This document shows, one piece after another, positions 5,938-38,289 of a stretch of 55,593 nt of DNA. The DNA is from Pirellulales bacterium. GTDB taxonomy: Bacteria > Planctomycetota > Planctomycetia > Pirellulales > JADZDJ01. A model generated the notes under the pieces. The model ran no database searches. It had not been told where the DNA came from and saw only the letters and a program-made list of their open reading frames with translations. Position numbers and translations under genes: made by a program. The stretch covers positions 1 through 55,593 of the forward strand of contig JADZDJ010000283.1 of the NCBI GenBank assembly GCA_020851115.1. Direction: 5' to 3'. The first letter of the stretch is position 1, and each line of letters starts with the position of its first letter.

Positions 5938-6670
5938 TCCAACGACTCGACCGCTCGCGAAATCGCTGCTCTGCGAAGCAGCGGCGATTCGAGCATCCTG
6001 GACTTGCGCAAAGCGCGATGCCGCGCCAATCAACGCCTGTTGCCCCATTATTTGACTCGAAACACTTTCATTACTTCGTCCCCCAGGTGATTGATCACCT
6101 TGACTGCAATCCGGCCGCTCGCGGGTTTGTCGAATGGGCGGCTGGTGTCGCGATGGAGCGTGCTCCAGGCGTCGGCGTTGATCTCGGCCTTGAGCGTGGT
6201 TTTCAGCGACTTGTATGGGTCGCTTGCGCCCAGGAAATAGGCATGGCGGACGAAGAAGCTCTCTTCGTTGTAATCGGTGTCGAGGAACCAGCAGGCGATG
6301 CCGTCCGCCCCGTCGCTGCGGACTTCGCCCGTGTTGGGATGGAACACATCGACGCCGTTGACCTTCACCCGCAACTTGCCGTCCTTGCCGGTCAGAATCT
6401 CGATATCCGGCTCGCCGAAGATCACAAACAGGTTCCCCTTGCCGGTGTTCTTCAGGTCTTCGGCCATGTGCAGGTCGGCGTTCATGCGGGCCTTCAGCAC
6501 GGGTAGCTTGCCCAGCTTGTTGAACTCGGTGGCATGGGCCTCGTAGTTGAAGGCACAGGCAATCAGCACGTCAAAATTGGCGTCCCCCGCCTCGCGGGCC
6601 GCCTGCACCAGGTCTTGCCGCTGCACGGTGCCAAACTCCGGGCCGATGAAGATGGCGGCTCGCATTTCGT

Positions 6671-6738
6671 TCTTGTTGACAGGATGAACAGGATTCTCAG
6701 GATGCTTTGCCTGGTTCTTATCCTGTGCATTCTGTCGA
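6671..6738. repeat. Dispersed ACAGGAT-type palindromic repeat inside the methyltransferase remnant
   Basis: Iterated AACAGGAT/ACAGGATT words on the left face ATCCTGT/TTCTGTC words on the right, giving an imperfect palindrome. It is read in frame as a polar stretch around NPVHPVNK, between CAAGTY and AAIFIGPEF. It belongs to the same word family as the 7186-7413 pair. Confidence 0.65.
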
Positions 6739-7185
6739 TAGGTTCCCGCGGCGCAAACCATCTCTCCCGGCCAGGGGACGAGCGACGTGAACGTAATCCG
6801 GTCCTCTTTGTGGGCCTGCTGCACGCCGGCGGTTTTGAGGTTCTCCAGGATGATTTGTGCGAAGTCCGGCACGTGACTCCGGTCGCTTACGCTTCCGGCT
6901 CGCCGGGTGGATTTCAGCGGGTCGATCAGCTCGTCGTTTTCATCGACGCCCAAGACGCGATGCGGCGAGAGACTTTCGACGGTAAACGGCCCGGCCACGC
7001 GGACCTTCTTCTTGTCTTCATACGGCTTGTCGTAGAGATATTCGAACTCCGCCTTGGCGGCAATGCTGGCGTCGATCTCTTTCTGCCGCGCGATGCGGGC
7101 CTCCCACCAGGCAGCGTGAAGTGCCTGAGTGGCTTTTGGCCAGTGGGGATCGGCTGCGCGGGGAATCTCCCACTCCTCCCAGGGC

Positions 7186-7413
7186 TTGTTTTGGACAGGA
7201 TTCACAGGATGGGCAGGAAGGTTTTTTGAATCCGTCATTCCTTTCGATTCAATTCCGCCTTGTTGATCCTGTAAATCTTGTTCATCCAGTCCCAATTCCT
7301 TGTTTTGGACAGGATTCACAGGATGGGCAGGAAGGTTTTTTGAACCCTTCATTCCTTTCGATTCAGTTCCGCCTTGCCGATCCTGTAAATCCTGTTCATC
7401 CTGTCTCAATTCC
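7186..7413. repeat. Tandem pair of 114-bp repeats, in frame in the methyltransferase remnant
   Basis: Units 7186-7299 and 7300-7413 match at most positions, and each is exactly 38 codons. Both begin with TTGTTTTGGACAGGATTCAC and end with iterated ATCCTGT words, so each unit is itself an imperfect palindrome. In protein they give repeated DEQDLQD and HPVNPVQNK stretches, inserted between the LNE and PWEEWEIP segments of the methyltransferase. Confidence 0.85.
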
Positions 7414-7633
7414 TCGTTCAGTGCCTGTCTCAGCGGTTCTAGCCGCGTTTGCCACTTCTCCCAGATCACGTCGATTTCGGCGTTGTTGGCAATGCTTTTG
7501 AGCGTGATGTGCGGCACGCGCTCATAGACAAAGCCGTGGCGGAGATTGCCGTGCGTGGGCTGCGTGGAAGGAGCGGACTGCGTGACTTCCGCTTCCTTGT
7601 GCTGCCCGTCGGGCGAATCGGCGAGCAGATAGC

Positions 7634-7714
7634 CCATTTGCGGATCGTGTTGTGGTGGACGCCGAGGTACTCGGCCGCCTCCGCGGTGTGCAGATATTCC
7701 GATAATTTCGTCAT
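7634..7714 (-). pseudogene. N-terminal remnant of an excisionase/MerR-type HTH protein
   Basis: ATG 7714 opens 27 codons reading MTKLSEYLHTAEAAEYLGV and then NTIRKW, the start of the small helix-turn-helix proteins annotated as excisionase family. After the Trp codon at 7634-7636 the similarity stops. The sequence then matches the methyltransferase remnant in another frame, and the HTH frame runs on as unrelated residues to 7466. Such HTH genes often precede restriction-modification genes in planctomycetes, so the order fits one locus shortened by deletion. Confidence 0.65.
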
Positions 7715-8000
7715 CGGCTTGGCCTCCGACCATTGGGCGAGGAAATCGCTGGACCCTCAGGTTAACAAACCCTATACGATTTGAACACCGCGCGCCCGTG
7801 GTCGGCCCAATGTTGGCCAACGGCAAGTGGCGATGCAATTTTCGGTGGAATGGTTGCCCACCGCGCTGGTCTTCGTTTCGCGCTTGGGTCTCTTGCGTGG
7901 CTGCGCGATGCAGGGCGGCTGGATTCAGCACGCCGAGCTGGAACCGAGCACACCGAGAGCGATGCTGTTCGTGGCGTCGCCTGATGCTCGAATATCGCTT

Positions 8001-30903: not shown

Positions 30904-33900
30904 CTAAGTTGGCGCGATCGAGCCAGACCGTTTGACAGCGGATGCATGGTGTTGCAGAAATTGAAATAAATCACCGTGGTGCAGATCGTCGTCGGATACA
31001 AATCGCAGTTTGATGACATCGGTGTCAGTTCGGTTTGAGTCAAACTCCGGTTCCTGGCCCAATTCGGCCACTCGCCCCATCGCAAACTGCCCCTTGGGGC
31101 CGCACAGCGCCAGTTCGACCGCCGCGAGTCTCTTCGTCCAAACCCGCGCCCACGGCTCTCGCTGACCCTGGATGAACACTGTCACCGATTGATTGTTGTT
31201 CCACAAGAATTGTGCGTCCGGGGCCGCCGACTGAAGCATTTCAAGCAACTCCTCGAGTACTTCCGGCGGCCAGGCAATCTTCTTACTTGGCGGAAATCCT
31301 TTGCGGATCAAATGCCATTTTCGGCCGAGCACCGTCCACGGCATCACCGACTCTGGGTCCTGCTTGACGCGCTCGGTAATCTTCTTGAAACCTGCGACGG
31401 CTTGCTCAATAAACTGCCAAAATTGCTTGTGATCGATCTCGTCGAGTGCATGAACTCGCAGTTCGATCTCCTGCCAGGGGCCGCGGAGCGTTTTCACTTT
31501 GACTCGCTTGTCTGTTCCATAGACCGGCAAGTCGTGCATTTCGTTCAAGGGCTTCATGCCGAGCTTGTTGATCAGCCCATCGCGACCGAACGTTCCTTTT
31601 GCGACACGGAATTTTAGTTTCACCAGCCACTGCTCGCCGGTGATGGCGTGCAGAAACCAGCCATCCGCTTTCTTTGTCGCACAGATTTCGACGACGCTCC
31701 GATCGTTCCAATTGGTCGGGCTGAACTCGCCCAAGTCGTGAATTCGATCGACAATCCTTTCGAGGACTCGCCCTTCCCAGCGCGCCGGTTCGCCGTTGCG
31801 GCCGACTCGGTCGACCGTGTGCCATTTCCTGCCGTCCGCCTCCCAGGGCATTTGGGCTTCCTTGCCGACCTGATTGATATCCAAGTCGCCAGCGCGCTTC
31901 GCCTCTGTCGCGGCAGGATTGTATGCCTTGCGCTCGACGTAAGGGCCGGCAGCAAGGACTGGGGCTAGAGCGATGGCCGTGTGCGATATCGAGGGTTCGG
32001 GCGCAGACTGCTCTCGATGCTTCCCGGCTTCCGCCTTCCGCCTTCCACCTTCCTTCGGCCGAACCCTGTACCCCGAACCCCAAACCCTGACCACTTCCTC
32101 CGGCGTCCCCTCCGCCACCACATACCCGCCCGCTTCCCCCGCCTCAGGCCCCAAGTCGATGATCCAATCGACCGTCTTAATGACATCAAGATTGTGCTCG
32201 ATCACGACGACCGTGTTTCCCAGATCGACGAGTCGATGCAGCACGTCGAGCAGTTTCCGAATATCGTCGAAATGCAAACCAGTGGTCGGTTCGTCGAGCA
32301 AGTACAGCGTTCGGCCGGTATCGGGCCGACCAAGCTCCGCGGCCAACTTCACACGCTGCGCCTCGCCGCCGGAGAGAGTATGCGCAGGCTGGCCAAGCCG
32401 CAGGTAATCCAGCCCCACGTCGCACAGCGTTTGCAAAATGCGGCGGATTTTCGGAATGTTTTCAAACAGCTTGAGCGCTTTGCCGCAACTCAATCCCAGG
32501 ATGTCGGCAATCGACTGGCCGTGATACGTCACGGCCAGCGTTTCTGGGTTGTATCGCTTGCCGTGACAGATATCGCACTGCACCCAAACATCGGGCAGGA
32601 AGTGCATTTCGATCTTTTTTTCGCCGTTGCCTTCGCATGCCTCGCATCGGCCGCCTGGAGCATTGAAGCTAAACCGCCGCGGCTGATACCCGCGCACCTT
32701 TGCCTCGGGTAATTGCGAAAAAAGTTGCCGGATCAATTCAAACGCGCCCGTGTACGTGGCCGGATTGCTCGTCGGCGTATTCCCCAACGGTTGCTGATCG
32801 ACTTGAATGACTTTGTTGATGAGCTCGATGCCGCGAATTTCATCGTGAATGCCGGGGATCTCCCGCGCCCGGTGCAACGTCCGGGCCAGCGATTTATAGA
32901 GAATATCTTGAATCAGTGAGCTCTTACCGCTTCCGCTGACACCGGTGACCGCGGTCAGTGTTCCGAGCGGAATTCGTGCGGAGATATTGCGGAGGTTGTT
33001 GTGGCGAGCGCCGAGGATCTGGAGGAAGGGCTCAGGGTTCAAGGTTCGAGGTTCAGAAGCCAACGAGTCTTTCGCTCGCTTGCCTTTTTTCGTCCGTTTA
33101 TTTTCCGACATCTCGCTGCCAATTTCAGCTTTCCCCTGCTGAACCCTGAACCCTGAACCCTGAATCCTCCGATGACTCGGCACGGCAATCGCGCTTTTCC
33201 CGCTCAAAAAAGGCCCCGTCACCGAGCCGCGGGCCTTCGCGACTAGCTGTGGCTTGCCGCGGGCGACAATCTCCCCTCCATATTCTCCTGCGCCGGGACC
33301 GAAATCGAGCAATTGATCGGCACTTTCGACCACTTCTCGATCGTGCTCGACGACGAGCAGGGTATTACCGAGGTCGCGCAGTTTCTGTAGCGCCGACAGC
33401 AAGCGCCGATTGTCGCGCGGGTGCAACCCGATGGTCGGCTCATCGAGCACATACAGCACGCCGCACAGGCCGCTGCCAACCTGGCTCGCCAACCGAATCC
33501 GCTGCGCCTCGCCTCCAGAAAGCGTTGGCGCGGGGCGATTCAAACTGAGATATTCAAGGCCGACATCGACTAGAAACTGCGTCCGGTTGCAAATTTCGCG
33601 CAATAGCTCGCCGGCAATTTTCTTTTCCGACCCCGTCGGTTGCCAGTTGTGAAGCTCGTTCAACAATTTCCCCAACGGCAACCGACCCAGATCGTCGATG
33701 GTCTTCCCGCGCAATCGTACTGCCGCGGCCAATTCGTTCAACCGGCTCCCGCCGCACGCCGAACATTCGACATCGTCCGTCAAATGTTCAAGCTGTCCGC
33801 GCATCGCCGGCGACAACCGCGCCGCCTCCTCCAGCGCCGGATACAACCCCTTGTACTGAAATCGAAACGTCGGCACTGCCGATTCTGTTTTCTGCTTTCC

Positions 33901-36900
33901 GCCTGCCGCATTTTCCCGACTCCGGACTCCCGACTCCTGAACTCTCACGTCAATCCAATCATCCCCTGCGCCATGCATCACGACGCGCCGTTCGCTCGAA
34001 GTAAGCTGCTCAAACGGCACATCGATGCGCACGCCAGCATGCGTCGCCAGCACCTGAAGCATTGCCGCAAAGATCGCCCCCTGCGCCGGCGGCCACAGCG
34101 CGATCGCCCCCTCGGCGAGCGACAGTTTCGGATCGCGGACCAGCACTGCGGGGTTCGCCCCAAGCTGCGTTCCCAAGCCTTCGCACTCGGCGCACCAACC
34201 GAGCGGACTATTGAACGAAAAACTGTGCGGAGTCAGCGGCTCGAAACTGCGCCCGCATTTGTCGCAGGCAAAATGTTGGCTGTGAACTTCCGTTCGCCAG
34301 CGTTTCTCTGGCACGTCATCGACCGGATACGCCACCGTCAACACGCCTTTGCCGAGCGACAGCGACGTTTCGACGCTCCCGGCAATTCGGCTGCGAGCAT
34401 CGGGCCGCACCGCAATGCGATCGACAATCACCTCAACCGCGTGCTTGCGGCGGCGATCAATCTCGGGCGGCTCATCAACGGTGAACGTCTTCCCGTCGAC
34501 GCGCATTCGCTGATAGCCGTTCGCCCGCATTTCACTCCAGAGCGTTTCATACTTTTCGCCGACTCGAATCTCCAGCGGAGCCATCAAATACAGCTTCGTG
34601 CCGTCCGGCTCGGCCATCAATTTCTCGATCACTTCATCGGCCGACTGCGTGCCAATCGGCTCATTGCACGCGGGGCAGTACGGCTTTCCGAGTCGCGCCA
34701 TTAACACGCGGAAATAGTCGTAAATCTCAGTGACCGTGCCGACCGTCGACCGCGGGGTATGCCCAAGATTTTTCTGCTCGATCGCAATCGCCGGCGAAAG
34801 TCCCTCGATATGTTCCAGCTTCGGCTTCTGCATCTGCCCGACAAACTGGCGGGCATAGGCGCTCAGGCTTTCGACATATCGCCGCTGCCCTTCCGCGTAA
34901 ATCGTATCCATCGCCAGCGAACTTTTTCCCGATCCGCTCAGCCCGCAGCACACCGTCATCTGATCGCGCGGAATGTCGACATCGACGCCTTTCAAATTGT
35001 GTTGCCACGCCCCGCGCACGCGAATCGTTTGCTCGCCGAAAATCTGGCCATTCGCGCTGCGACGATTCGACGGCTCATTCCCCTTCGATTTCAGGGACGC
35101 GGGCGAGGGGCCGTTCAAAATCGGAGCAAGTGCCATCGCGGTATGCGAAACAGTACGTTTCGACCGGTGCCCATTGCCCCCCACGTTCGAATGCACCCGT
35201 TCCTCTTCCGCCTGCTGACGGCTGAATCCTGAACGCTGAACCCCGGCAACTTCTTCTGGCGTCCCCACGGCCACCACTTCCCCGCCCGCAGCGCCTCCTT
35301 CCGGCCCAAGATCAATCATCCAATCCGCCGTCTTGATGACATCGAGATTGTGTTCGACCACCAGCACCGTGTTGCCGGCATCCACCAAATCGTGAAGCAC
35401 TTTGAGCAGCATTTGAATGTCGGCAAAGTGCAAACCGGTCGTCGGCTCGTCGAGCAAGTACAATGTCCGCCCGGTGCTCCGCTTGACCAGTTCGCGCGCG
35501 AGCTTGATCCGCTGCGCCTCGCCTCCCGACAGCGTCGGCGACGCCTGGCCAAGCTTGAGATAGTCCAACCCGACGTCGTGCAGCGTCTGCAGTTTACGGC
35601 GAATGTCGGGAATATTCTCGAAGTGCGCGAGCGCCTCCTGCACATCCATCTCCAGCACATCCGCGATATTCTTCCCTTTGAACCGTACCTGCAGCGTCTC
35701 ACGATTGAACCGATGGCCGCCGCAGACCGGGCAAGTCACCCACACATCGGCGAGAAAATCCATCTCCAGCCGATTCGAGCCGTTCCCTTCACAGGCTTCG
35801 CACCGTCCGCCGCTCACGTTAAAACTAAATCGTCCCGGCTTGTACCCGCGGGCCTTCGACTCCGGTAACCGCGTGAATAAATCGCGAATATCATCGGCGA
35901 GCTTGATATATGTCGCCGGATTTGACCGCGGCGTCCGCCCGATCGGCGACTGGTCGATCGCAATCAACTTGTCGAGATGTTCTAGCCCCTCGATCCGATC
36001 GTGAGCTCCTGGGTTTCCCACTCCCGCATTCAAATCGCGATTGAGCGCCTCCGCCAAAATGTCGTTCACCAACGAACTTTTACCCGATCCGCTGACTCCC
36101 GTAACGCAAACAAACGTACCCAGCGGAATCTCTACTGTGACATGCTTCAGATTGTTATGCCGAGCGCCAACGATGCGAAGGTATGTGGAGGCGGCAGGCA
36201 GCAGGCGGCAGGCGGAATGATCTGCGACTTTCTCGCTGGATGAAGGAGTTGATTTCGAGGATCGTCGCCGGTTTTGTTTAGTTTCTGCAAACTGCCGTGT
36301 TTCCTCCGTCTTCCGACTCTGCTCCATCTGGCTCCCGAACCCTACCCCCTGAACCCTCCTCCGCTCCGGCACCACAATCCTTCGCTCCCCGCTCAAAAAC
36401 TTTCCCGTCACACTGCGTTCGGCCTTGATAATTTTCTCGAGCGGCCCCACAGCCACGACTTCGCCGCCGCGCACGCCGGGCCCAGGACCGACGTCGATGA
36501 TCGTGTCCGCCTCGCGCATGGTGTCTTCGTCATGTTCGACGACGACGACGGTATTCCCTTTGTCGCGAAGCTGGCGCAGCGTAGCGAGCAGCTTCGAATT
36601 GTCGCGGGGATGCAGCCCGATGGACGGTTCATCGAGAATGTAAAGTACCCCTACCAGCCCACAGCCGATTTGCCCCGCAAGGCGAATTCGCTGTGATTCG
36701 CCGCCCGACAGCGTCGGCGCCGTGCGATCGAGGGACAAATAATCGAGTCCGACATTCACCAAAAATCCCAACCGGCCGCGAATTTCCTTGAGAGCCTCCT
36801 CGGCAATTTTCCTGCTCGTTTCATCGAGATGTAGTTCGCCGAAAAACTCCGCTGCATCGGCAACCGCCAACGAACATACTTCGGGGAGCGACCGGCTCGG

Positions 36901-38289
36901 TTGCTCTGCGAATTTCGAATGCATCGAGGTCAGGGTCACGCTTCGCGCCTGCGGATTGAGTCGGGCTCCTGTGCACGACGCACACGGCACGACGCGCATA
37001 AACTTTTCGAGCATCCGCCGGTGCATTTTGTTCTTGCTCTCGCGATACTTCTTCAAGAGCTGCGGCACGATTCCTTCATATTTGCCGCCATACTTCATCC
37101 CGTGTGCGCCGCTCCGCCAGGTGAACGTGATATGCTCATCGCCGGTTCCGTGCAGCCAAAGATTTTTCAGCTCCGAAGATAGATTCTTCCACGGCGTTTC
37201 GAGCATCGTTTCCGGCTCGATTTCGAGCTTTCGCTCCATCGTGTCGGCCACGCCTTTGTAGATATGTCGCCGCCACCGACCCATGTCGCGCCAAGGCCCG
37301 ACGAGTTCAATCGCCCCATGAGCAAACGACAAGTCCGCATTCGGTACGAGCTTTTCGGGATCGAAGCTATAAATTTCGCCGAGCCCATCGCATTGCTTAC
37401 ACATTCCCTGCGGGCTGTTGAAGCTGAAAAGCTGCGGACTGGGCGGCTCGAAGCTGATGCCGCAATGGGTGCAGGCGTAGTGAGCGGAGAGCGTGAAGGT
37501 GGAAGGTGGAAGGTCAGCATCGTTTGCAATGTCCTCATCCTGAACCCTGAACCCCGAACTCCGAACCCTCTCTTCCACAACGACGATTAACTCTCCTGCA
37601 CCCAGTCGTAGCGCCATCTCTACCGCTTCGGCCAATCGCGGGCGTACGCTCGGTCCTGCCGTCAGCCGATCGACCACCACTTCGATGTGATGCCGCATTT
37701 GCCGGTCGAGCTTCAGATCGTCGCTGAGCGGCACCACTTGGCCATCGACTCGCGCCCGCGCGAACCCCTGCTTCAGCAGATCCTCGAACAGATCCTTGTA
37801 TTCTCCTTTTTGCGCCCGAATCAACGGAGCGAGCACCAAGAACGGCGTCTTCTCGGGCAATTGCAAAATCCGCTCGATAATCTGCTCGCGGCTCTGCGCC
37901 GTTACCGGCCGGCGGCACTGCGGACAATGCCCTTGTCCGACGCGGGCGAACAGCACCCGCAAGTAGTCGTAAATCTCCGTGATTGTTCCGACCGTGGAGC
38001 GAGGATTTTGCCCTGATGACTTTTGCGAAATCGAAATCGACGGGCTTAGCCCAGAAATATGATCGACTTCGGGTTTCGGCATTTGCCCCAAAAACTGCCG
38101 GGCGAAGCTCGACAAACTTTCGACATATCGCCGTTGCCCTTCAGCATACAACGTATCGAACGCCAGCGAACTCTTGCCGCTGCCGCTCACGCCGGTGAGG
38201 CAGACAAGTTGATTGCGCGGCAAAACCACGTCGACGCCGCGCAGATTGTGCTCGCGCGCGCCGCGAATCACGATATCGGGAGCAGGCAT
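30904..38289 (-). CDS. uvrA: Double-length UvrA (two UvrA units in one chain) with duplicated C-terminal module
   Basis: UvrA finds DNA damage for nucleotide excision repair. This 2461-residue chain holds two whole UvrA copies, hence four ATPase sites. Walker A motifs lie near residues 33-40 and 726 (copy 1), 1115 and 1781 (copy 2). LSGGExQR signatures lie near 523, 917, 1587 and 1971. Each copy has CxxC pairs of the insertion domain (CTHCG...CKQCDG near 275; a matching pair in copy 2) and the CEACEGNG...CxxC finger near 828 and ~1880. Both copies end in a similar SHTA-ALAP tail. Residues ~2146-2461 are a module present twice, starting MPWEADGRKWH and MPWTVLGRKWH. Linkers between conserved blocks carry short iterated repeats. 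UvrA normally acts as a dimer of ~940 residues, so a single chain could act as a built-in pair; this is inference. Confidence 0.93.
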   Translation of the reverse strand: MPAPDIVIRGAREHNLRGVDVVLPRNQLVCLTGVSGSGKSSLAFDTLYAEGQRRYVESLSSFARQFLGQMPKPEVDHISGLSPSISISQKSSGQNPRSTVGTITEIYDYLRVLFARVGQGHCPQCRRPVTAQSREQIIERILQLPEKTPFLVLAPLIRAQKGEYKDLFEDLLKQGFARARVDGQVVPLSDDLKLDRQMRHHIEVVVDRLTAGPSVRPRLAEAVEMALRLGAGELIVVVEERVRSSGFRVQDEDIANDADLPPSTFTLSAHYACTHCGISFEPPSPQLFSFNSPQGMCKQCDGLGEIYSFDPEKLVPNADLSFAHGAIELVGPWRDMGRWRRHIYKGVADTMERKLEIEPETMLETPWKNLSSELKNLWLHGTGDEHITFTWRSGAHGMKYGGKYEGIVPQLLKKYRESKNKMHRRMLEKFMRVVPCASCTGARLNPQARSVTLTSMHSKFAEQPSRSLPEVCSLAVADAAEFFGELHLDETSRKIAEEALKEIRGRLGFLVNVGLDYLSLDRTAPTLSGGESQRIRLAGQIGCGLVGVLYILDEPSIGLHPRDNSKLLATLRQLRDKGNTVVVVEHDEDTMREADTIIDVGPGPGVRGGEVVAVGPLEKIIKAERSVTGKFLSGERRIVVPERRRVQGVGFGSQMEQSRKTEETRQFAETKQNRRRSSKSTPSSSEKVADHSACRLLPAASTYLRIVGARHNNLKHVTVEIPLGTFVCVTGVSGSGKSSLVNDILAEALNRDLNAGVGNPGAHDRIEGLEHLDKLIAIDQSPIGRTPRSNPATYIKLADDIRDLFTRLPESKARGYKPGRFSFNVSGGRCEACEGNGSNRLEMDFLADVWVTCPVCGGHRFNRETLQVRFKGKNIADVLEMDVQEALAHFENIPDIRRKLQTLHDVGLDYLKLGQASPTLSGGEAQRIKLARELVKRSTGRTLYLLDEPTTGLHFADIQMLLKVLHDLVDAGNTVLVVEHNLDVIKTADWMIDLGPEGGAAGGEVVAVGTPEEVAGVQRSGFSRQQAEEERVHSNVGGNGHRSKRTVSHTAMALAPILNGPSPASLKSKGNEPSNRRSANGQIFGEQTIRVRGAWQHNLKGVDVDIPRDQMTVCCGLSGSGKSSLAMDTIYAEGQRRYVESLSAYARQFVGQMQKPKLEHIEGLSPAIAIEQKNLGHTPRSTVGTVTEIYDYFRVLMARLGKPYCPACNEPIGTQSADEVIEKLMAEPDGTKLYLMAPLEIRVGEKYETLWSEMRANGYQRMRVDGKTFTVDEPPEIDRRRKHAVEVIVDRIAVRPDARSRIAGSVETSLSLGKGVLTVAYPVDDVPEKRWRTEVHSQHFACDKCGRSFEPLTPHSFSFNSPLGWCAECEGLGTQLGANPAVLVRDPKLSLAEGAIALWPPAQGAIFAAMLQVLATHAGVRIDVPFEQLTSSERRVVMHGAGDDWIDVRVQESGVRSRENAAGGKQKTESAVPTFRFQYKGLYPALEEAARLSPAMRGQLEHLTDDVECSACGGSRLNELAAAVRLRGKTIDDLGRLPLGKLLNELHNWQPTGSEKKIAGELLREICNRTQFLVDVGLEYLSLNRPAPTLSGGEAQRIRLASQVGSGLCGVLYVLDEPTIGLHPRDNRRLLSALQKLRDLGNTLLVVEHDREVVESADQLLDFGPGAGEYGGEIVARGKPQLVAKARGSVTGPFLSGKSAIAVPSHRRIQGSGFRVQQGKAEIGSEMSENKRTKKGKRAKDSLASEPRTLNPEPFLQILGARHNNLRNISARIPLGTLTAVTGVSGSGKSSLIQDILYKSLARTLHRAREIPGIHDEIRGIELINKVIQVDQQPLGNTPTSNPATYTGAFELIRQLFSQLPEAKVRGYQPRRFSFNAPGGRCEACEGNGEKKIEMHFLPDVWVQCDICHGKRYNPETLAVTYHGQSIADILGLSCGKALKLFENIPKIRRILQTLCDVGLDYLRLGQPAHTLSGGEAQRVKLAAELGRPDTGRTLYLLDEPTTGLHFDDIRKLLDVLHRLVDLGNTVVVIEHNLDVIKTVDWIIDLGPEAGEAGGYVVAEGTPEEVVRVWGSGYRVRPKEGGRRKAEAGKHREQSAPEPSISHTAIALAPVLAAGPYVERKAYNPAATEAKRAGDLDINQVGKEAQMPWEADGRKWHTVDRVGRNGEPARWEGRVLERIVDRIHDLGEFSPTNWNDRSVVEICATKKADGWFLHAITGEQWLVKLKFRVAKGTFGRDGLINKLGMKPLNEMHDLPVYGTDKRVKVKTLRGPWQEIELRVHALDEIDHKQFWQFIEQAVAGFKKITERVKQDPESVMPWTVLGRKWHLIRKGFPPSKKIAWPPEVLEELLEMLQSAAPDAQFLWNNNQSVTVFIQGQREPWARVWTKRLAAVELALCGPKGQFAMGRVAELGQEPEFDSNRTDTDVIKLRFVSDDDLHHGDLFQFLQHHASAVKRSGSIAPT
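32030..32092. repeat. Iterated CCTTCC/GAACCCT repeat in the uvrA linker before the C-terminal module
   Basis: TTCCGCC/TTCCACC words at 32030-32056 and GAACCCT-like words at 32061-32092 are read in frame after GTPEEV, giving GSGYRV and EGGRRKAE-like peptide. The stretch lies between the last ATPase block and the SHTAIALAP tail. Confidence 0.7.
33031..33168. repeat. Facing GGTTCAGG / CCTGAACC arrays in uvrA copy 2
   Basis: An array of GGTTC words (33031-33056) faces an array of GAACCCT words (33138-33168), so the pair can fold into a long stem. Both fall in the linker between the two ATPase halves of UvrA copy 2, near GSGFRVQQGK. Confidence 0.75.
33917..33946. repeat. CGACTCC-type iterated repeat in uvrA copy 2
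   Basis: CGACTCCGGACTCCCGACTC and related words give the peptide ESGVRSRE in a loop of UvrA copy 2, after WIDVRVQ. Confidence 0.6.
35221..35245. repeat. CTGAACC-type repeat at the junction of the two UvrA copies
   Basis: Three diverged CTGAA(T/C)CC words follow the GTPEEVAG end of copy 1 and give the peptide VQRSGFSRQQAEE. Confidence 0.6.
36190..36359. repeat. Two iterated repeats in the linker of UvrA copy 1
   Basis: GGCAGGC words at 36190-36217 and GAACCCT words at 36334-36359 bracket a polar linker of ~55 residues (RRVQGVGFGSQ to RLLPAAS) between the two ATPase halves of copy 1. Confidence 0.65.
37493..37570. repeat. GAAGGTG and GAACCCT repeats in the first insertion domain of UvrA
   Basis: GAAGGTG is iterated at 37493-37515 and GAACCCT/GAACCCC words at 37540-37570. 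The peptide is SSGFRVQDED, next to the first CxxC of the insertion domain. Confidence 0.65.

Follow-up and report, generated by a model that had tools for sequence, protein, structure and literature searches.

In-frame hairpin inserts in a planctomycete methylase-like gene: probable copies of a mobile palindrome linked to GxxExxY genes

Introduction

Rickettsia palindromic elements (RPEs) are described, in the available passages of the source, as palindromic repeats of 100–150 bp, some of which lie in open reading frames (ORFs) with the frame intact (PMC3767692). In the excerpts of a second source, RPE and WPE sequences are known from Rickettsia and Wolbachia, and the RPEs of R. conorii end in CGTC; the same excerpts present REP/REPIN sequences as short dispersed palindromes that are mostly intergenic, with some located within genes (PMC3733652). 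The consulted part of a Coxiella study places the S23 ORF of the 23S rRNA intervening sequence (IVS) in a stem loop, with tandem heptamers ahead of the ORF (PMC4990558). PARCELs, in the portion of text available, are stretches of coding DNA with dyad symmetry and a patchy distribution, which are thought to have spread horizontally and form tandem 25-residue protein repeats in ORFs (PMC2996958).

The window analyzed here, which is the whole 55,593-nt stretch of a contig from a Pirellulales bacterium, carries hairpin inserts of a family referred to below by its word ACAGGAT. On balance, we read these inserts as three copies of a non-autonomous mobile palindrome, whose family is linked to GxxExxY genes and has apparently not been described before. 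Compared with RPEs, the window elements are likewise palindromic, lie in an ORF and keep its frame, as does a second example (locus L091). Unlike RPEs, they have arms composed of nonamer arrays, they are spread over several phyla and archaea, and their arms are shared with GxxExxY genes, a feature absent from the excerpts of the RPE literature examined. RPEs are also many-copy sequences, whereas the window's genome holds copies in one gene; other genomes hold many copies. RPEs are a good analogy for the behavior of the inserts, with kinship judged from RPE descriptions instead of RPE sequences.

The elements resemble REP/REPIN sequences and their RAYT partners in being short dispersed palindromes, but the arms have a short period and the linked gene codes for a PD-(D/E)XK protein, not for a Y1 transposase. 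As in the 23S rRNA IVS, the loci of TIGR02436 genes possess paired arms, mostly with period 7 where the period is clear. The ACAGGAT family differs from the IVS in its 8–9-nt periods, its link to GxxExxY genes and its location both between genes and in protein genes. PARCELs share the dyad symmetry in coding DNA and the patchy presence, whereas ACAGGAT elements mostly lie outside long ORFs. Some genes of the GxxExxY family (TIGR04256/PF13366) lie within ACAGGAT arms, whereas the family descriptions concern the protein alone. An ACAGGAT/GxxExxY palindrome family is not described in the titles, abstracts and passages covered, a scope outside which most subscription papers and the bioRxiv preprints fall.

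Results

Architecture of the inserts and their host gene

Repeat finding, folding and unit alignment delimit two 114-bp units of 38 codons each on the minus strand, located at 7185–7298 (unit 1) and 7299–7412 (unit 2). The two units are direct copies that are identical at 106/114 positions and differ at 8/114. As an earlier note on this DNA had claimed, they form a tandem that adds 76 codons; the minus-strand ORF at 6048–7931 (627 aa) stays open with no stop, and the insert sits between LNEEL and PWEEWEIP, in agreement with the placement between LNE and PWEEWEIP given in that note. On the plus strand, both units fold better than 200/200 shuffles each (z −3.7 and −4.5), and the minus strand of unit 1 folds less clearly (z −2.4; 1/200 shuffles equally good). 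The earlier note had called the whole unit palindromic. This description holds for approximately the outer 30 nt on each side, but not for the middle ~38 nt, which is non-palindromic.

A nonamer hairpin element lies within each unit. The element of unit 2 (7308–7405; gACAGGATTCACAGGAT ... ATCCTGTAAATCCTGTTCATCCTGTc) is the best preserved, and its outer 30 nt pair at 21/30 positions, a value that no other 98-nt span of the window exceeds (mean 7.7). In the element of unit 1 (7194–7291; gACAGGATTCACAGGAT ... ATCCTGTAAATCTTGTTCATCCAGTc), the right arm is decayed and 18/30 outer positions are paired. The arms are tandem nonamers, which read ACAGGATNN in one arm and ATCCTGTNN in the opposite arm. 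When 2 mismatches at most are allowed, CAGGATNNACAGGAT has 11 matches in the window compared with 0.75 expected (0/100 shuffles reach 11); all 11 lie inside the ORF at 6048–7931 and recur at 9-nt spacing on each strand, in the manner of inverted arms with an 8–9-nt period. A third, shorter nonamer hairpin with the same word, which the earlier note had overlooked, is located in the same ORF at 6678–6736 and is read as the peptide RQNAQDKNQAKHPENPVHPVNK. The inserts of the window are only 59–98 nt long and, unlike the 23S rRNA IVS, lie in a protein ORF. The element proper is the ~98-bp nonamer-array hairpin and not the whole 114-bp block, and the duplication that produced the 114-bp tandem took in flanking codons. 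The peptide reading of the window element is RQDEQDLQD ... HPVNPVQNK.

The host ORF, listed with a GTG start, is 5´-truncated and covers the C-terminal portion of a DNA methylase-like protein of ~960 aa. It has no Pfam or NCBIfam match, and its homologues occur in 22/146 genomes of the window's order, the window's own genome counted. Homology to the long homologues starts at aa 101 (about 7631), which leaves the first 100 residues unmatched. The closest homologues (L020, L021, L022 and L023) are 64–82% identical over the matched stretches; the open frames of L020 and L021 are 961 and 984 aa long. In L020, an N6_N4_Mtase domain precedes the part held in common with the window ORF. The methyltransferase label of the earlier note therefore fits L020, but the window ORF itself matches only the region downstream of this domain. 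The host gene is probably a 5´-truncated methylase relic, because the N6_N4_Mtase part is gone and the first 100 residues are unmatched; we therefore claim no function for the added peptides, and the added codons are probably neutral. The host gene may also have come from elsewhere together with the elements. On the minus strand in another frame, positions 7616–7714 read as the beginning of a helix-turn-helix protein of small size (HTH_17, 26.1 bits, just below the Pfam cut-off of 27), which overlaps the non-homologous N-terminal stretch of the methylase ORF. A different periodic hairpin, with the word CGCAGATT, is present in frame in a spacer of another methylase homologue (L026, ~1329–1395).

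Alignment with methyltransferases that lack inserts had been proposed in the earlier note, together with the consideration that the segment, if native, could be found in distant homologues. L020, L021, L022 and L023 all lack the segment at the insert site: the 76 codons are absent between the LN... and WEEWEIP blocks, so the inserted status of the segment withstood this comparison. The third hairpin is likewise missing from these four closest homologues, which have 7–12 residues at its site compared with 25 in the window (counted by eye).

A second in-frame case is found in Saprospiraceae. At L091, an element lies in frame inside a gene of the FdhF/YdeP family of oxidoreductases (852 codons). 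Approximately 30 residues at this site are missing from the homologues L301, L302, L304 and L305, and a fifth aligned homologue, L300, has ~12 unrelated residues there. The element is read as RQDLQD ... NPVHPVENK, in the same reading frames as the window element. On the evidence of these alignments, insertion relative to homologues is seen in two unrelated genes.

These observations bear on whether the 76 codons, instead of being inserted, are native to the methylase or a repeat that grew locally. Nonamer arrays can grow by slippage, and the two units do form a tandem duplication. However, slippage leaves the inverted second arm unexplained, the third copy at 6678–6736 lies at another site, four homologues are without the hairpin, and the hairpin recurs in other, unrelated genes and in other phyla, which together make this origin extremely improbable.

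Distribution of the hairpin

In the window's genome (5.2 Mb in 304 contigs), 8/8 matches to ACAGGATNNACAGGAT with up to 1 mismatch fall in the host gene, and the reversed control gave 1. The genome-wide search for the unit that the earlier note had suggested thus recovers every match, the third copy included, in one gene and none elsewhere, and the hairpin is not a genome-wide family in this genome because no match lies outside the host gene. The confinement of every copy to a single gene, the 304-contig state of the genome and the error-prone nature of tandem repeats might point to an artefact of assembly or binning. This is very unlikely, since the units differ at 8/114 sites, the third copy stands apart from them and no stop breaks the frame in any of the three.

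Among 57 genomes, comprising the window's own and its relatives, the exact motif is present in 6, two of which hold it 14 and 11 times (reversed control, 1 in total). The three-unit motif was found in 5/294 genomes sampled across the phylum, again with the window's own counted. Beyond the phylum, a two-armed pattern matches at least 119 stretches in public genome contigs, and the features below were scored on 80 listed loci among them. These 80 loci include Planctomycetes, Acidobacteria, Chloroflexi, Proteobacteria, Bacteroidota, Verrucomicrobia, Nitrospinota, Calditrichia and others, as well as the archaea Methanoperedens, ANME-2 and a euryarchaeote. The pattern itself fixes the element core; beyond the core, a G precedes 60/80 listed elements and a C follows 60/80, with both in 55. 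IMG/VR contains 6 stretches with two-armed ACAGGAT hairpins. In 25 genomes chosen from the pattern matches, the two-unit motif occurs 7–363 times per genome, compared with 1 for the reversed control over all of them; Thiobaca is the richest, with 363 matches. In a Methanoperedens genome, 16/20 chosen regions with differing flanks have TCGTATCC where the loop meets the arm, as expected of dispersal. When the ORFs of the 80 listed loci were clustered to look for a gene that repeatedly accompanies the short elements, nothing but generic families came up (ABC proteins, dehydrogenases and response regulators, named by eye).

An open frame of more than 150 codons contains 15/80 listed elements, which by itself proves little. 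The other 65/80 lie outside such frames, some listed copies are within 40 nt of an ORF end, and the flanks are T-rich on the left in 47/80 and A-rich on the right in 43/80. These features would suit immobile hairpins that are kept for a function, as bidirectional terminators, mRNA ends or protein-binding sites, with the copies in genes as rare accidents. We regard this as improbable, given the patchy presence of the motif (6/57 genomes; 5/294 for three units), the near-identical copies dispersed in one genome and the in-frame insertions in two unrelated genes.

The element ends also differ from those of the described palindromes. CGTC occurs within 12 nt of the ends in 2/80 listed elements, where 12 are expected by chance, and GTAG in 5/80, where 5.6 are expected. 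The analogy with Rickettsia drawn in the earlier note accordingly survives as far as the behavior of an in-frame palindrome is concerned, but does not extend to the nonamer arms, the range over phyla and archaea, or the CGTC ends, which are not above chance.

Association with GxxExxY genes

The GxxExxY family corresponds to TIGR04256 and PF13366 (PDDEXK_3) of the PD-(D/E)XK superfamily, and both proteins scanned match PF13366. A GxxExxY gene was found in 53/77 genomes, namely 22/25 motif-rich genomes and 31/52 others. As a strict requirement for the motif, the gene was rejected: 3/25 motif-rich genomes, Thiobaca included, are without a match. Presence of the gene in the relatives does not track the motif either, with GxxExxY in 26/46 genomes of the window's order without the motif and in 5/6 with it, a comparison that covers 52 of the 57 motif-searched genomes. 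Plasmids gave 8 GxxExxY records, and one query of phages and IMG/VR gave no match.

Inverted repeats of short words border GxxExxY genes on both sides. In the first 30 loci, taken as returned, the best 24-nt arms are paired at ≥20/24 positions in 24/30, compared with 17/300 mismatched upstream-downstream pairings and 0/28 distal windows of the same loci. A further 40 loci were hand-picked (39 from motif-rich genomes and 1 from the window's own), so the 56/70 loci with strongly paired arms of any word in the enlarged set are not an unbiased rate. Among lags 5–12, the best lag is 8, 9 or 10 for 53/56 paired loci; many of these arms are periodic only in a loose sense, because no more than 8/56 arm pairs reach ≥0.6 identity at the best period in a stricter lag test. 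Two rigid criteria, the recurrence of identical 7-mers at a 9-nt spacing in both arms and a regular expression for the protein motif GxxExxY, each gave 0/30 loci and were replaced by alignment-based scans.

The window's own word was read in the GxxExxY arms at 8/70 loci, all of which belong to the 53 loci from motif-rich genomes: L192, L195, L234, L246, L247, L252 (arms 19/24), L255 and L264. These carriers come from Bacteroidota, Calditrichia, Acidobacteria, Proteobacteria and Planctomycetes. By a script count, the motif lies within 260 nt of 9/70 GxxExxY genes, of which 6 (L195, L234, L246, L247, L252 and L264) have it on both sides; in near-equal windows, it lies within 260 nt of 0/30 four-helix-bundle genes and 1/29 Y1_Tnp genes. 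The GxxExxY gene of L195 occupies the loop of a single palindrome, and those of L192 and L247 lie between arm clusters. At L173, the gene is flanked by two near-identical direct copies of an entire hairpin of the CACAGAG class. The one GxxExxY gene found in the window's genome (L233, G000:C244:3700-6300) is broken by two stops and adjoins an arm of the CACAGAG class.

Arm word and protein were found to covary. Over 56 elements, GxxExxY identity correlates with arm-word similarity between different genomes (rho 0.49; 0/500 permutations as high). The correlation persists across phyla (1311 pairs; rho 0.47), where 0/1000 free and 0/1000 within-phylum permutations are as high and the largest within-phylum permutation rho is 0.32; in these tests, the window's relatives are classed as Planctomycetes with Pirellulaceae and Gemmata, an assumed label. 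On the GxxExxY protein tree, in which many forks are unresolved, the eight carriers, chosen by arm reading, require 4 changes compared with 7.7 for shuffled labels (0/500 as low). A rough identity test of ACAGGAT carriers gave 47/2000, with a regular-expression choice that included L238, which has another word, and missed L252. For the ACGAAT, CGAAG and CAAAG word classes, protein similarity does not clearly exceed that of random sets. Given the covariation and the clustering of carriers, the GxxExxY protein and the word tend to travel together across phyla, if not in every word class.

The protein has features that would suit a nuclease. Of the D ... ExK residues typical of the superfamily, D62 is kept in 70/70 GxxExxY proteins, E72 in 68/70 and K74 in 69/70. 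The structure model (pLDDT 93) has nucleases as its nearest folds. SSO0001 scores best (Z 8.8), Hjc resolvase reaches Z 6.9 and restriction enzymes, like Hjc, lie at Z ~6–7; these scores are graded as middling, and Z below ~8 is weak. Foldseek returned no PDB match for the model at E≤0.001, and the PDB holds no sequence relative of GxxExxY, so the predicted fold match to nucleases is supportive only.

Hairpins are natural substrates of Y1-type enzymes, and the palindromes could be REP/REPIN-like or Rickettsia-type sequences moved by a Y1 (RAYT/IS200) transposase, with the GxxExxY association as a by-product. Y1_Tnp genes are present in 28/28 genomes searched, including Thiobaca, which has no GxxExxY match, and Y1_Tnp remains a candidate mover for this reason. 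In Thiobaca trueperi (L317, ~1318–2015), moreover, the loop of an ACAGGAT hairpin contains a gene for an IS200-like transposase; because of this arrangement, GxxExxY genes could likewise insert into pre-existing palindromes instead of owning them. The flanks of Y1_Tnp genes tell against a Y1 mover. Paired arms (≥20/24) occur in 13/29 loci, but with other words and no short period, and their lag identity is 0.38 compared with 0.37 for shuffled arms, whereas GxxExxY arms reach 0.50 compared with 0.40. That 13/29 Y1_Tnp genes score also indicates that the arm scan detects other palindromes. The same palindrome around the Y1_Tnp gene, as in REP/RAYT systems, is seen as the motif in the flanks of 1/29 loci, compared with 9/70 for GxxExxY genes; these numbers are small, and 39/70 of the GxxExxY loci were picked from motif-rich genomes. 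The Y1_Tnp set comprised 30 loci, of which L326 (contig end) was excluded from the arm and motif counts and L339 also from the lag test. The counts of GTAG and CGTC near the ends given above likewise speak against a Y1 mover, which we consider unlikely. Six Y1_Tnp genes (L319, L320, L323, L324, L328 and L333) have 24/24 inverted repeats of other words, in line with the REP-like expectation.

Four-helix-bundle genes

The four-helix-bundle genes of TIGR02436, which we take to be the S23 family, form a parallel class with the same architecture as the GxxExxY loci. At these loci (L203–L232), arms pair at ≥20/24 in 25/30, compared with 4/300 mismatched pairs and 0/29 distal windows. The period is 7 in 15/18 clearly periodic arms, and lag identity is 0.67 compared with 0.43 for shuffled arms.

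The window also contains a period-7 palindrome at 33027–33168 (word GGTTCAG; arms 82% complementary), which lies in frame in the minus-strand ORF at 30904–38289. This ORF encodes a 2461-aa double UvrA-like protein, in which the palindrome precedes an ABC_tran match at aa 1766–2003 and similar SGFRVQ/SGYRVR peptides occur elsewhere. A genome search for the period-7 word as GGTTCNNGGTTCNNGGTTC gave 34 matches, with a single array accounting for 10 (reversed control, 0). Six TIGR02436 matches are present in the window's genome, several of which are partial or contain stops (listed contigs C242, C25, C74 and C302).

Discussion

The reading that we favor, of three copies of a mobile palindrome, suggests the following course of events. 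The element would be a ~60–100-bp hairpin, whose arms consist of two to three tandem ACAGGATNN words, often with G before and C after. Such hairpins would have entered the DNA methylase-like gene in frame at two spacer positions, and two of the three copies would stem from a local tandem duplication that arose after insertion. On each strand of the nonamer array, one frame never has a stop, and the other two have one only for some variable bases (hand-derived). In-frame tolerance was presumably helped by the 9-nt period, because each unit amounts to three codons and insertions in spacers survive.

Movement by the GxxExxY nuclease is an inference from sequence comparison. The protein may cut DNA at or beside such palindromes and thereby drive their copying, through either a homing-like repair pathway or the processing of hairpins once they are extruded. 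The short elements may be gene-less derivatives that are mobilized in trans. The motif-rich genomes with no GxxExxY match, the weak co-occurrence of gene and motif in the window's order, the failure of any gene family to recur next to the short elements and the loose period of many arms count against this mechanism. More broadly, and tentatively, the elements could belong to a class of cross-domain mobile DNA in which GxxExxY proteins recognize and propagate hairpins of tandem 8–9-nt words, each lineage with its own word, and gene-less copies moved in trans add peptides in frame; a parallel class would combine 7-nt words with four-helix-bundle proteins and include the rRNA IVS as one known case. 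We hold this wider picture to be possible but somewhat doubtful.

Mobile palindromes that enter genes in frame are already a known kind, to which the present elements would add a candidate link to a nuclease family. In the excerpts of literature examined, in-frame palindrome insertion is chiefly a matter of Rickettsia and Wolbachia; here, it is seen outside these genera, in two genes that are unrelated to each other. Because the element occurs in bacteria and archaea and a candidate enzyme covaries with the DNA word, the movement of palindromes becomes directly testable. GxxExxY and four-helix-bundle proteins are widespread small families that, to our knowledge, have no known function. If the proposal is true, it would give both a role and would account for HPVNPV, QDLQD and similar peptides in proteins as read-through of an element.
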